A stretch of 33,280 bases of DNA from contig JAGGYC010000152.1 in assembly GCA_021162745.1 (NCBI GenBank), forward strand, positions 1 through 33,280, in the 5' to 3' direction. A program made the translations under genes and the position numbers. Source of the stretch: Desulfuromonas sp. Lineage in GTDB: Bacteria; Desulfobacterota; Desulfuromonadia; Desulfuromonadales; Desulfuromonadaceae. Numbering within the stretch: the first letter of the stretch is position 1; every line of letters begins with the position of its first letter. Below the pieces are notes generated by a model, which was not told where the DNA came from, did no database searches, and saw nothing but the letters and a program-made list of their open reading frames with translations. Below, piece after piece: positions 10,240 through 28,968 of this stretch.

Positions 10240-10267
10240 TGTCCATCCTAAAAAACATGATTCAGAG

Positions 10268-10408
10268 TCACTATTCAGCACATTGACAGAGGGGGTTACA
10301 ATGCCCATTTCAAGGGTGTTTGTCGCCATGGATGGCGACATCAAGCCCCATGGATGGGTTCATGCGTCCCTTGAAATGGGCATTGTGCCCCTTGCAAGTG
10401 AATAGTTA
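10268..10408. repeat. R1 palindromic element, copy 1 (diverged)
   Basis: A 141-bp imperfect palindrome between rsmB and htpX. The outer ends are TCACTATTCAGC and GTGAATAGTTA. An 18-base perfect inverted repeat CAATGCCCATTTCAAGGG pairs 10299-10316 with 10368-10385. A second perfect inner hairpin GTCGCCAT/ATGGCGAC lies at 10322-10339, and a smaller CCCA/TGGG hairpin follows. The order of stems is the same as in copies 2 and 3, with different but still pairing bases. No flanking direct repeat was found. Confidence 0.85.
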
Positions 10409-12915: not shown

Positions 12916-13030
12916 TGTTTCTGTTCCCTTCAATATAAGCCCATCGACCAATCAAGGGCCGAAAGATACCAATCGCACCATGATAATACGTGCCTAAAAC
13001 CAAGTCAACTCAAGGGTCATATTGGCAGGC

Positions 13031-13220
13031 GGTTGCATAACGGTGTCACCGGAATTATGAGAATATCACCTATACAATCAATTACTCCTGACCCCTACGC
13101 AGTAAAAAGAACCAACTCAATACCAAACGGCAACATTTGTCGGATGAAGTCCGGGTCTCGCCCCGGCAGGCGACATCCTTTTTGAAAGCCGCCAAAAAGG
13201 AAGCAAAAATCGGCTTCTTT
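13031..13220. repeat. R2 repeat, copy B (rearranged: 5' block plus inverted core)
   Basis: The first part (13031-13119, plus orientation) matches the 5' block of copy C at 13411-13501, sharing for example TACGCAGTAAAAA. The second part is inverted relative to it. It carries hairpin 3 as CCGGG/CCCGG (13151-13155 with 13162-13166) and hairpin 2 as TCCTTTTT/AAAAAGGA (13176-13183 with 13194-13201). Hairpin 1 and the middle block are missing. Copy B therefore looks like a deleted and inverted or compound copy. Confidence 0.6.
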
Positions 13221-13402: not shown

Positions 13403-13672
13403 ACCAACAGGGCGTCGCAAAACGGTACTACCAAAACAATGAGAACATCACCCACACATCCAAATATTCCTGACGCCTACGCAGTAAAAAAGAGTCAACT
13501 CAGTCTGTCTCAAGACAGACTGACCGCCAAGCTCACGCATAACGGAAACAGACTCATCGTAAGTTCAAACAGAAATCTCGCGAAGCGGGTTTTAGGCGAT
13601 TTCTTTGCCGACTTTCTTTGGGGCCAATAAAGAAAGTCGGTCGGCTGCGGGCCGAGTCCCGCGACCTTGACC
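13403..13672 (+). repeat. R2 repeat, copy C (full length)
   Basis: A 270-bp copy on the plus strand. Hairpin 1 is CAGTCTGTC/GACAGACTG with a TCAA loop (13501-13522). Hairpin 2 is CCGACTTTCTTT/AAAGAAAGTCGG (13608-13619 with 13629-13640). Hairpin 3 is GCGGG/CCCGC (13647-13651 with 13658-13662). It begins with ACCAACAGGGCGTCGC and ends with CGACCTTGACC. All three stems pair perfectly in this copy. Confidence 0.8.
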
Positions 13673-13763
13673 TTAAAAGGTCTTCAACGGCTCAATGCCA
13701 AACGGTAACAGTATCGAAAAAGCCAATACTCGCGCCAGCAGACACTCCCTTTTAACAAACCAC

Positions 13764-25606: not shown

Positions 25607-25801
25607 GAATCCCCCATATTGAAAATGGCTCTACAAAATCATCAAACTACACCACGAAAAAACAATCGTTTTCTTTATTCAAACTAAAAAGCCTTTCAGC
25701 TCCACTGTAAAATACTACAAATCAGACAAGCAACACAACGACCGTATACGAATAAAGAATAAAGCACATCTCCTAATTCTCCACGTTTTCAAAAAAAATT
25801 A

Positions 25802-25944
25802 GTAACTATTCAGCCCGAAACGCTGGCAACGCCCATTCCAAGGGACGTCAAGCCCATCCATGGGTACTTAACTGCCGCCATCCAGGCGGCAGATACCCTT
25901 TTCATGGGCGTTGCCAGCATATCTACAGTGTGCTGAATAGTTAC
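25802..25944. repeat. R1 palindromic element, copy 2
   Basis: A 143-bp element with 13-base perfect terminal inverted repeats GTAACTATTCAGC (25802-25814) and GCTGAATAGTTAC (25932-25944). Inside, GCTGGCAACGCCCAT pairs with its exact complement near the other end. A CTGCCGCC/GGCGGCAG hairpin with a 5-nt loop lies near the centre. The flanks share AAAAATTA on both sides (25794-25801 and 25945-25952), a possible target-site duplication. In inverted orientation it is nearly identical to copy 3. Confidence 0.92.
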
Positions 25945-25968
25945 AAAAATTAAGCACATAAAAAATTA

Positions 25969-25998
25969 TTGCAATCTTGCAAGCATCTGGACTACACT
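25969..25998 (+). promoter_or_regulatory. Candidate deaD promoter
   Basis: TTGCAA (25969-25974), an 18-nt spacer and TACACT (25993-25998) resemble a weak sigma-70 promoter, about 50-60 nt upstream of the helicase start and 25 bp after R1 copy 2. Confidence 0.35.
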
Positions 25999-26055
25999 GA
26001 AAGGCTTGCTCAACAATGAGCACCGTAAACACTTAAGAATACAAGGCTGTACCCC

Positions 26056-27846
26056 ATGACGTTATCCCCCGATTTAAGCACCGACTTTAGTTCCCTGGGC
26101 ATCGAAGACAATCAACTCAAGGCACTGCACGACCTCGGCTATCAGAAACCATCTCCGATCCAGGAGCAAAGCATCCCCATCCTGCTGGCTGGCCACAATC
26201 TGCTCGGCACCGCTCAGACCGGCACCGGCAAGACCGCCGCCTTTGCCCTGCCACTGCTCAGCCGGATCGACGCCAGCCAAAGGCATCCACAGATGCTGGT
26301 ACTGGCGCCAACCCGTGAGCTGGCGATTCAGGTTTCTGAAGCGATCAAGGGCTTTGCCAAGTATATGCCGCGCATCAAAGTGCTGGCCGTCTACGGTGGC
26401 CAGCCCATGTATCAGCAACTCAAGGCGCTACATAACGGGGTACAGGTTATTGTCGGCACACCGGGACGGATCATGGACCACATGAAACGCGGCAGCCTTA
26501 AGCTGGACAAGATCCACGCTGCCGTTCTCGACGAAGCCGACGAGATGCTACGCATGGGTTTCATCGATGATGTCCAAACCATCCTCGGTGCCACACCGCC
26601 GCGCTGCCAGTGCGCCTTGTTCTCCGCCACCATGCCGCCGGCAATCCGCCGGGTGGCTAATAAATATATCGGCGACGCCGAAGAGGTGCAGATCGCCTCG
26701 CGCACATCCACCGTTGATCAGATTGAGCAACACTACCTGATGCTGCGCAGCAACCAGAAGTTTGATATCTTGAGCCGCATCCTCGAAGCCGAGGACTACA
26801 ATGGCATCATCATCTTCGTCCGCACCAAAACCGCCACCACCGAACTGGCCGAGCGCCTCGAAGCCCGTGGTCATTCAGCAGCAGCCCTCAATGGTGACCT
26901 CAGCCAACAACTACGTGAGCGCACCATCGATCGCCTCAAAAAAGGGACCATCGATATCGTTGTCGCCACCGATGTCGCCGCCCGTGGCCTCGACGTCACC
27001 CGAATCAGCCACGTCTTCAACTACGATATCCCTTTCGATACCGAAGCCTATATTCACCGTATCGGCCGCACCGGTCGCGCCGGACGTACCGGCAAGGCGA
27101 TCCTGTTTGTCTGTCCGGCAGAGCGGCGCCTACTCAAAGCGATTGAGCACGCCACCAAGCGGCAAATTCCGGCCATGCCTGTACCCAGCGGTGAGCAAAT
27201 TGGCGCTCGACGCATTGCCGCCTTTAAAGCGAAACTTCAAGACACCTTGGACAACCAAAATCTGGTACCCATGCGTGCGTTGATCCATGAGTTGACCGAC
27301 CAGAACGATATCGACATCGCCGACCTGGCCGCCGCCCTCGCCTACCAGATTCAGGAGAAAAAGACCCTGTTTCCGAAACTGTCCAAGATCCAAACCCCAT
27401 CGCTGGACGACCGCAAACAGCGCGGCAGTGGCAACATCGGTAGCGGCGGCAGCAAACCGGAACGGAAGCATAGCACCGAGCCCATGAACCGTTACCGCTT
27501 GGCCGTCGGTCGTCGGCACAACATCACGCCGCGCGATATTGTCGGCGCCTTCACCAACGAAGGGAAGATCAACATCCGCACCATCGGTCGAATCAGCCTT
27601 TATACCGAGCACTCCACCGTTGAACTGGCTCAAGACCTGCCGCCACAGTCGATCGAAAAATTGCAGGGGATCAAACTGCGCCAACACGACATCAAGCTCC
27701 AACCGATGAGCGACAGTGCGCCTTCACGCGACAAAAAACCTTTTAAAGGGAAGAAAAGTGCTCCGCGCACCGAGCGCGACAAAGGGGCACCAAGCGGTCG
27801 CAAAAAGAGCGGCAGCAAACCCTTTGTTCCAAAGAAACACCGTTGA
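26056..27846 (+). CDS. deaD: DEAD-box ATP-dependent RNA helicase (DeaD/CsdA type)
   Basis: A 596-aa RNA helicase that remodels rRNA or mRNA, often at low temperature. All helicase motifs are present: Q-motif GYQKPSPIQEQ, motif I AQTGTGKTAA, PTRELA, TPGR, DEADEM, SAT, IIFVRTK, TDVAARGLDV and HRIGRTGRAG. After the core (about 1-375) come a linker and dimerisation-like helical part, and then a DbpA-type RNA-binding domain (about 480-555, ITPRDIVGAFTNEGKINIRT). A basic Lys/Ser-rich tail of about 40 residues ends the protein. This order is that of DeaD/CsdA. The gene stands between two inverted R1 copies and is followed by a terminator. The ribosome site before the ATG (AAGG) is modest. Confidence 0.95.
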   Translation: MTLSPDLSTDFSSLGIEDNQLKALHDLGYQKPSPIQEQSIPILLAGHNLLGTAQTGTGKTAAFALPLLSRIDASQRHPQMLVLAPTRELAIQVSEAIKGFAKYMPRIKVLAVYGGQPMYQQLKALHNGVQVIVGTPGRIMDHMKRGSLKLDKIHAAVLDEADEMLRMGFIDDVQTILGATPPRCQCALFSATMPPAIRRVANKYIGDAEEVQIASRTSTVDQIEQHYLMLRSNQKFDILSRILEAEDYNGIIIFVRTKTATTELAERLEARGHSAAALNGDLSQQLRERTIDRLKKGTIDIVVATDVAARGLDVTRISHVFNYDIPFDTEAYIHRIGRTGRAGRTGKAILFVCPAERRLLKAIEHATKRQIPAMPVPSGEQIGARRIAAFKAKLQDTLDNQNLVPMRALIHELTDQNDIDIADLAAALAYQIQEKKTLFPKLSKIQTPSLDDRKQRGSGNIGSGGSKPERKHSTEPMNRYRLAVGRRHNITPRDIVGAFTNEGKINIRTIGRISLYTEHSTVELAQDLPPQSIEKLQGIKLRQHDIKLQPMSDSAPSRDKKPFKGKKSAPRTERDKGAPSGRKKSGSKPFVPKKHR

Positions 27847-27885
27847 TGGCGTCACAAAAATTCATTTTTACAAAAACATCATCGT

Positions 27886-28029
27886 TAACTATTCAGCACA
27901 ACTATAGATACACTGGCAACGCCCATGGAAAGGGTATCTGCCGCCCGGATGGCGGCAGTTAAGTACCCATGGATGGGCTTGACACGTCCCTTGGAATGGG
28001 CGTTGCCAGTGTATCGGGCTGAATAGTTA
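27886..28029. repeat. R1 palindromic element, copy 3
   Basis: A 144-bp element, inverted relative to copy 2 and nearly identical to it (a 2-bp indel and a few substitutions). The ends are TAACTATTCAGC and GCTGAATAGTTA. The exact 9-bp sequence CATCATCGT flanks both sides (27877-27885 and 28030-28038), which is the pattern of a target-site duplication. Outer and inner stems are as in copy 2, with the central hairpin CTGCCGCC/GGCGGCAG. It lies 40 bp after the deaD stop codon. Confidence 0.93.
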
Positions 28030-28048
28030 CATCATCGTTAAATAAAAC

Positions 28049-28533: not shown

Positions 28534-28968
28534 CTAACCCTCATTCCTCACAAACAATCTAGCAAACTTGAATTGCCCGGTAGTGCCCCCCCAGCTTACC
28601 TCTGCCGATGATGACATTCGATGACTGATCAATATTAATCAAACCCAAGGTCAAGTTCGCGGGTTTCGTCCCGCAGCCGACGTACTTTCTTTGAATAGGC
28701 CCCAAAGAAAGTACGCAAAGAAATGGCCTTGAAAACCAAAGTAACCAACGGTGGAGCTAACGGATTCTGTGTGCGGATTGCGTATCTAGCCGAACTGCGG
28801 GGCGGGCCTGATCTCTTGCGGCCCGCACGTATTTGATTGACAATATTTCATCATGAACAGTAGTACATGTTGTTTGTTGGCTTATCGCTCTCTACTTTTT
28901 CCGTGGCACCGCTATGCAGAACCCTGTTGGTGCGACACCATCCAATCAGTCCATATTTCCTGAACCAC
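28534..28968. other. Gene-free spacer with R2 copy D
   Basis: 435 bases without a supported gene between the small membrane protein and the DksA-like gene. Most of it is R2 copy D (28649-28931). The remaining 115 bases on the left show no terminator or promoter that can be marked with confidence. Confidence 0.7.
28649..28931 (-). repeat. R2 repeat, copy D (full length)
   Basis: A 283-bp copy on the minus strand. Hairpin 1 is GCGGGCC/GGCCCGC (28802-28808 with 28820-28826), hairpin 2 GTACTTTCTTT/AAAGAAAGTAC (28682-28692 with 28704-28714), and hairpin 3 GCGGG/CCCGC (28659-28663 with 28670-28674). It shares the 5' border ACCAACAGGGT with copy C and ends at GGTCAAG, read on the plus strand. The right end reaches within 40 bp of the DksA-like gene. 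Confidence 0.8.

Follow-up and report, generated by a model that had tools for sequence, protein, structure and literature searches.

Location and copies of the repeat

The window analysed here is the whole of a 33,280-nucleotide (nt) stretch of Desulfuromonas sp. DNA (contig JAGGYC010000152.1, positions 1 to 33,280), and its subject is a short repeat that we read as a miniature inverted-repeat transposable element (MITE) with an RNA-like interior. Two copies flank a gene for a DEAD-box RNA helicase, copy 2 upstream and copy 3 downstream, in opposite orientation and with 93% identity; the gene is a neighbour and lies outside the element. An earlier reading of the letters without database searches (the sequence-only reading) had described these two copies as nearly identical and about 143 base pairs (bp) long, in agreement with the 143 and 145 bp found here; the start that it gave for copy 3 (27886-28029) is retained and the end is moved to 28030. 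Strands listed for the copies are those of the GGA-loop RNA described below.

10267-10408, plus strand: divergent MITE copy 1, ends decayed; covariance-model match at 10292-10392, plus strand, 94.8 bits
25802-25944, minus strand: MITE copy 2, 143 bp; covariance-model match at 25820-25920, minus strand, 102.6 bits
26056-27846, plus strand: gene for a DEAD-box RNA helicase, DeaD/CsdA-like; in NCBIfam PRK11634 matches best, with 631 bits against a cut-off of 989
27886-28030, plus strand: MITE copy 3, 145 bp, its left end having lost the first G; covariance-model match at 27910-28012, plus strand, 104.6 bits

A blast search of the window's own genome (G000, 163 contigs) gave 37 rows, 30 of which were made into loci and read. 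Full-length copies are approximately 143-158 bp, and the shortest matches are 77-bp stretches of the core only, several of which sit within a different outer stem. The repeat is thus short, multicopy (about 30 copies), without coding capacity and bounded by 13-bp terminal inverted repeats, as a MITE should be. The sequence-only reading had made its proposal depend on the existence of other copies and on flanking repeats in most of them; the first is answered by the copies read in the genome and by the third copy in the window, and the second is taken up below.

Terminal repeats and target duplications

The ends of the element are the 13-bp sequence GTAACTATTCAGC, and the two copies beside the helicase gene are bounded as follows.

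25794-25801, unstranded: copy 2 left target duplication, AAAAATTA
25802-25814, plus strand: copy 2 left terminal inverted repeat, GTAACTATTCAGC
25932-25944, minus strand: copy 2 right terminal inverted repeat
25945-25952, unstranded: copy 2 right target duplication, AAAAATTA
27878-27885, unstranded: copy 3 left target duplication, ATCATCGT
27886-27897, plus strand: copy 3 left terminal inverted repeat, TAACTATTCAGC
28018-28030, minus strand: copy 3 right terminal inverted repeat, GTAACTATTCAGC on this strand
28031-28038, unstranded: copy 3 right target duplication, ATCATCGT

The window has exactly four occurrences of the 12-mer TAACTATTCAGC, which form two inverted pairs. With up to two mismatches the 12-mer is found at six sites, against 1.45 expected, and none of 100 shuffles reached six. 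Both ends are recognizable in 23 of the 30 own-genome copies; of these 23, eight have exact in-register 8-bp flanking repeats, three have one mismatch, three (copy 3 among them) match after a one-base shift, and nine show no match. Flanking repeats are therefore seen in 14 of 23 two-ended copies and 14 of 30 overall, and their absence in most copies, which would have spoken against the earlier proposal, is not what was found. When the left flank of one copy was compared with the right flank of another, none of 506 pairs matched with one mismatch or fewer. Among the relatives' regions there are 21 end pairs, one of which has no readable left flank; the other 20 include 11 exact duplications and two with one mismatch. 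No target duplication was seen at copy 1 (10267-10408).

The flanking direct repeats reported by the sequence-only reading were borne out for copy 2, where they are an exact 8-bp AAAAATTA. For copy 3 it had reported exact 9-bp repeats, and had expected 8-9 bp target duplications in general. The 9-bp match CATCATCGT is real, but from the sequence the duplication is best read as the 8-bp ATCATCGT, the element having lost its first G, because the right end keeps the matching C and other copies show 8 bp. The match at a ninth base is due only to the C in front of the left repeat being identical to the last base of the element. Of the expected 8-9 bp, the 8 bp stands and the 9 bp does not.

An IS66-family partner

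The sequence-only reading had regarded the repeat as a MITE-like non-autonomous element and proposed a search for an insertion sequence (IS) with the same ends and 8-9 bp duplications. Such an element, of the IS66 family and with the same 13-bp ends, was found in related genomes. A search of 12 genomes with PF03050 gave seven matches, in four genomes other than G000, and at three of the seven loci (L116, L117 and L118) the exact 13-mer stands on both sides of an open frame of 477-483 amino acids. With the IS transposase as query, some match was obtained in 8 of 136 genomes of the order, and near-full-length, stop-free copies in five (G057 with two copies, G112, G051, G039 and G012). All six of these copies, approximately 1.70-1.73 kilobases (kb) in length, are bounded by ends identical to those of the MITE or differing by one change (L239 is the same IS as L118, and its right end was taken as that found for L118). 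Exact 8-bp duplications are present at two of the six (AATAAAAG and CTTGTTTT). The protein belongs to IS66, with 150 bits to PF03050 (cut-off 23.1) and 276 bits to NF033517 (cut-off 180).

In G012 the IS ends are GTAACTATTCACC, in which G is replaced by C at position 12. Three MITEs were the first to be read in this genome: the left ends of two are equal to this IS end, and that of the third combines the G-to-C change with one additional difference; a fourth, L190, instead shows two further changes. Of the five genomes that hold an intact IS, all but G057 have the MITE core as well. The sequence-only reading had seen no transposase with these ends in the window, and this extends to the draft genome: G000 gave no match to PF03050 or to the partner transposase, so its copies are probably stranded there, with the caveat that a draft assembly was searched.

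The ends, the duplications and the partner IS thus strongly support the reading of the repeat as a MITE that would be moved in trans by an IS66-family transposase recognizing GTAACTATTCAGC ends and making 8-bp duplications. That the mobile element is of this ordinary kind is well supported, and we have very little doubt of it. For the interior, an origin by internal deletion of the IS was rejected: when the two were compared by eye, nothing but the ends was common to them, and the RNA model has no match in the IS loci L116-L118.

At three of the six IS copies (L231, L232 and L234) an AYGGAY motif lies just before the transposase start codon, with predicted hairpin pairing; a hairpin is also predicted in L239. 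The other three copies have no GGA before the start codon.

Insertion sites

The sequence-only reading had suggested that empty sites in related strains be compared, which was possible in part. In eight same-genus genomes (L173-L180; L181 of G004 is not included) there is no RNA-model match near the helicase locus, and in the seven whose downstream DNA was read, ordinary intergenic DNA comes after the stop codon, several with a terminator-like hairpin. The intergenic DNA is too diverged for an exact empty site to be resolved. A composite transposon around the helicase gene was rejected, since the copies have separate duplications and the gene is found without them in the same-genus genomes. 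A conserved host RNA locus lying behind the MITE was likewise rejected: among the relatives' loci compared, which cover part of all copies, only L041 is shared (with L106). A plasmid or phage vehicle found no support either, as copy 3 was unmatched in plasmid and phage collections and viral contigs gave no exact two-ended match.

Fold and covariation of the interior

On the strand that carries the GGA loops, the predicted fold is a three-way junction made up of a long outer stem, an internal loop, a conserved helix (AAGGG/CCCTT) and a pair of hairpins whose loops contain GGA. The loops of the two copies beside the helicase gene lie as follows.

25857-25859, minus strand: copy 2, GGA of hairpin loop 2
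25881-25883, minus strand: copy 2, GGA of hairpin loop 1
27947-27949, plus strand: copy 3, GGA of hairpin loop 1
27971-27973, plus strand: copy 3, GGA of hairpin loop 2

The fold energy of copy 3 is -84.4 kcal/mol (z -10.4). This value does not name the strand, because the complement also folds well, and the lowest-energy fold of copy 1 departs from the proposed structure. The reading of structure and strand rests instead on covariation and on an asymmetry between G-U and A-C pairs. The core search gave 158 rows and 108 distinct stretches, then 110 distinct extended sequences; cores running off a locus edge or falling short of the model ends (starting after 6 or ending before 75) were dropped.

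Covariation was measured in an alignment (A1) of 42 cores, each with arms of 12 nt and together covering many genomes; they were drawn from 43 chosen below 90% similarity. Its figures are slightly favourable because L048, in which part of hairpin 1 is missing, was left out. Under the named structure 92.7% of cells pair, compared to 37-48% when the structure is slid. Both sides have changed in 26 of 34 pairs (17.8 in shuffles, standard deviation 1.5), and the covariation score is 0.461, against 0.186 in shuffled and at most 0.106 in slid versions. Entire outer stems have been replaced, with pairing retained. Among the 75 cores picked independently of the core pattern and the RNA model, 68 have both GGAs intact. 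In most cores loop 2 agrees with AYGGAY, and loop 1 does so only outside a CGGAT subfamily. Judged by these patterns, the cargo of the MITE is probably a structured RNA rather than a shrunken transposase gene.

Strand asymmetry and constraint

At 17 outer pairs in the 110 distinct cores, read on the GGA strand, there are 195 G-U and 33 A-C combinations, and G-U exceeds A-C in 11 of 11 informative genomes. This tally merges the labels G039 and Zod, which are one genome (12 of 12 otherwise); five more labels have neither combination. Since loci L147-L171 and L130-L146 had been chosen by the core pattern or the Rfam model, figures for the other 75 cores were obtained separately, and they agree (132 G-U against 31 A-C; 8 of 8 genomes). 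The G-U excess is unlike what strand-neutral processes, arm-templated repair included, would predict. In the same 75 cores changes are about four times more frequent in the outer arms (103/1563) than in the inner helices (31/1778). Over all cores, a set that includes loci selected for GGA, private changes number 64 G-U and 30 A-C, and GGA positions changed at 7/554 against 336/7971. Taken together, covariation and strand asymmetry make it likely that the cargo is a strand-specific RNA.

Similarity to TwoAYGGAY and a possible link to CsrA

The two loops recall TwoAYGGAY (RF01731, clan CL00106). In 4 of 58 genomes there are 17 full-length matches to this family with E at most 0.001 and scores of 35.0-42.2 bits; none of the 17 reaches the gathering threshold of 43 bits, and none is in the window's own genome. 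Copy 1 scores 30.9 bits, below the same cut-off of 43, and copies 2 and 3 have no match at E 10. As all scores lie under the family threshold, the element is TwoAYGGAY-like and not a member. A match to Rfam trpB at copy 3 (30.6 bits against 59) was taken as chance, because it spans the element end and the flanking terminator. Separately, a contig of the viral collection IMG/VR (L230, 1019-1083) has two GGA-loop hairpins; its match to TwoAYGGAY covers positions 45-113 and, with 39.2 bits, does not reach the cut-off.

In the passages available to us, Weinberg et al. judged TwoAYGGAY to be probably an RNA and probably not cis-regulatory (PMC2864571), and Gardner and Eldai proposed that it binds CsrA, terming this a testable hypothesis (PMC4333381). 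The window's own genome has a csrA gene (PF02599, 89.7 bits) followed by an overlapping fliW (PF02623, 122 bits), an arrangement likewise described for Geobacter in the sections seen of PMC11934962. According to the same sections, CsrA controls biofilm and extracellular electron transfer in Geobacter, and CsrB-like RNAs were predicted there and left for future work. That the cargo RNA acts through CsrA, to which it may bind, is our best guess, and in our judgement it has an even chance.

Gene context and distribution

The gene orientation around each core was assigned by a longest-open-reading-frame rule, which allowed 94 of the 110 cores to be counted (13 lie at locus edges, one is inside an open reading frame, and two have flanks already counted). 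The mixed orientation that results (28 sense and 40 antisense to the neighbouring gene, 16 between convergent and 10 between divergent genes) means that the element is not a fixed leader, and a cis-regulatory RNA with fixed orientation is not supported.

A search based on the ends found 41 distinct same-ended short elements, 31 of which have the core. The remaining ten comprise six with other cargo (134-202 bp) and four remnants of 33-55 bp. The six are L014 1500-1664, L070 1330-1513, L076 1312-1513, L079 1377-1513, L084 1380-1513 and L125 1818-1951; L084 has an exact 8-bp duplication and forms one family with L125. The core-less remnants, each with both ends, are L085 1466-1513, L082 1459-1513, L060 1501-1533 and L003 1500-1539. 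Since L085 and L082 still show exact duplications of 8 bp, the core can be lost once an element has inserted. In G004, tandem cores (L091, L101, L166 and L171) lie approximately 125-130 bp apart, with no recognized MITE ends in the stretches seen.

The covariance model (R1) matches 45 of 136 genomes of the order, in 16 of 53 genera. Of 395 genomes drawn from the phylum seven match: six belong to the order, and the seventh, a weak match, belongs to another class; at most 29 candidates per genome were scored for the order and at most 10 for the phylum, with strict filters. A pattern scan of named genomes, in which records close to the window's genome may be left out, gave 25 stretches, in records of Desulfuromonadales, Desulfuromonadaceae, Geobacteraceae, Pelovirga, Geoalkalibacter and Deltaproteobacteria. 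Sequence in common equates KA08 with G049 and Pelovirga terrestris with G040, which points to Desulfuromonadales as the order. The genome in the other class, G457, has three weak R1 matches (L216, L222 and L228, approximately 1501-1602, E 9e-5 to 3e-4), each with a very long outer stem and two hairpins, most loops having GGA, and with ends unlike those of the MITE. One of the three also matches RsmW, from the CsrB clan, at a score below threshold. These are possibly an independent element of similar design.

Two other repeats were observed in the window. A second dispersed family (518-607, 13587-13674 and 28646-28734; copies 82-89% alike) contains palindromic parts of AAAGAAAG and CAGCCGAC type, and similar sequence adjoins L022. 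A local direct duplication of 83 nt (13026-13108 and 13408-13490) has 77% identity over copies 382 nt apart.

Interpretation

We favour the reading that an IS66-moved MITE carries a strand-specific structured RNA with two GGA loops for CsrA, and we give it a probability of roughly 0.55. An IS66-family transposase from elsewhere would act in trans on the GTAACTATTCAGC ends and leave 8-bp duplications. If the GGA strand of a copy were transcribed, whether within an untranslated region or through read-through, the RNA would fold and could present its two GGA loops to CsrA, as proposed for TwoAYGGAY and known for CsrB/Rsm RNAs. The element would in this way scatter CsrA-binding sites across the genome. 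The mobile element of the sequence-only reading is kept as a MITE; what goes beyond it is an interior that resembles a strand-specific structured RNA shared by genomes of the order.

Several observations weigh against the favoured reading. The complement of copy 3 folds nearly as well as the GGA strand (-81.6, z -10.9). In the 75-core set, single-copy private changes are 40 G-U and 27 A-C (p 0.14), and GGA positions are marginally spared (6/355 against 187/5069, p 0.05) and not distinguishable from other unpaired positions (p 0.22). Loop 1 is CGGAT, not AYGGAY, in most own-genome copies. The RNA strand is more often antisense than sense to neighbouring genes, ten of the 41 same-ended elements lack the core, and the one insertion shared with a relative (L041, common to G006 as L106) has lost about half of the core in the relative's copy. 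We read the constraint as acting mainly on propagating lineages and weakly on each copy; the random-looking orientation and the decay of copies suggest that the RNA probably matters in those lineages or in trans, not site by site.

Several of these points would also be expected of an ordinary hairpin MITE without RNA function, whose palindromes would be by-products of transposition and template-switch repair and in which one arm copied onto the other would give compensatory changes without selection. Random orientation, near-symmetric private changes (40 to 27), a decayed shared copy, good folding of both strands and other cargo under the same ends all fit this explanation, yet repair templated by the arms predicts no strand preference, whereas G-U exceeds A-C by about 6:1 and does so in every informative genome. 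Nor does it account for two GGA loops that are unpaired and nearly invariant across genera, and we consider it unlikely.

The RNA could instead be a structure for mRNA stability or processing, such as an anti-exonuclease hairpin or an RNase III site, that does not work via CsrA. The very stable stem (-84.4 kcal/mol, z -10.4) would suit this role, as would the place of copy 3 between the helicase stop codon and what by eye is a terminator-like hairpin; in Bacillus cereus, untranslated regions often contain MITE-like repeats, and for one family of these, bcr3, a correlation with mRNA decay is described, as far as the consulted parts of PMC3446304 go. This leaves unexplained why the unpaired GGA loops stay while stems are replaced, and why one strand is preferred when the complement folds well too, so that the explanation seems rather improbable. 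Very improbable is a selfish variant in which transcribed copies titrate CsrA, derepress translation of the IS66 transposase and so aid their own spread: AYGGAY before the start codon in three of six IS copies, with the hairpins predicted there and in L239, would fit, and structure would be kept in spreading lineages regardless of orientation, but the other three IS copies lack GGA at the leader and a benefit in trans also reaches copies without the RNA.

A wider form of the favoured reading is that a CsrA-binding RNA was taken up by a transposable element and multiplied with it, reaching tens of copies in each genome across the order, so that CsrA titration and CsrA-responsive untranslated regions would be spread by transposition; TwoAYGGAY itself may be transposon-borne. 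We offer this tentatively, with a chance of about one in three. If true, it would be one way in which a global regulator has its binding sites multiplied. The usual view of MITEs is that of passive hitch-hikers, and for the orphan RNA TwoAYGGAY the link to CsrA is put forward as a hypothesis in the portion of PMC4333381 available. Among the papers listed, none was seen to join a MITE with CsrA or TwoAYGGAY; the one that mentions both MITEs and CsrA does so in unrelated passages.

Comparison with known systems

IS66 ends begin with GTAA, like the ends here. The 8-bp duplications are also those of the IS66 family, as described for ISPpa5a and ISPpa7 in the excerpts of PMC3281130, where the IS66 elements are 2.7-2.8 kb and multi-frame, in contrast to the 1.7-kb, single-frame partner IS found here. 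MITE and partner have only their ends in common, and the MITE holds the RNA-like core.

To our knowledge, REP/RAYT palindromes lack a target duplication. They are 20-40 bp with a GTAG or CGTC tag in the passages seen of PMC3733652, and the present repeat, at approximately 143 bp with GTAAC ends and 8-bp duplications, does not belong with them.

CsrB and RsmX/Y/Z, which sequester CsrA, are host small RNA genes. The element resembles them in having paired GGA motifs in predicted hairpin loops, and differs in that the putative CsrA-binding RNA is multicopy and mobile. It recalls TwoAYGGAY in its predicted pair of neighbouring hairpins enclosed by an outer stem, with loops that are in part of (A)YGGAY type; that family was reported from the human gut, gamma-Proteobacteria and Clostridiales, with no mention of mobile ends in the text seen of PMC2864571.

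The bcr repeats of Bacillus cereus are comparable in being MITE-like (bcr1-bcr3) or in having a conserved RNA structure (bcr10 and bcr18), often in transcripts; they belong to another host group, their structured and MITE-like families are separate, and CsrA-type loops do not figure in the excerpts of PMC3446304. Multicopy sequences have also been described in Geobacter and Pelobacter (PMC2700814, PMC3543383), for which the partial texts name no transposase or CsrA link. Compared by these descriptions, they are often intergenic, partly palindromic and from the same bacterial group, and they may include the present repeat.

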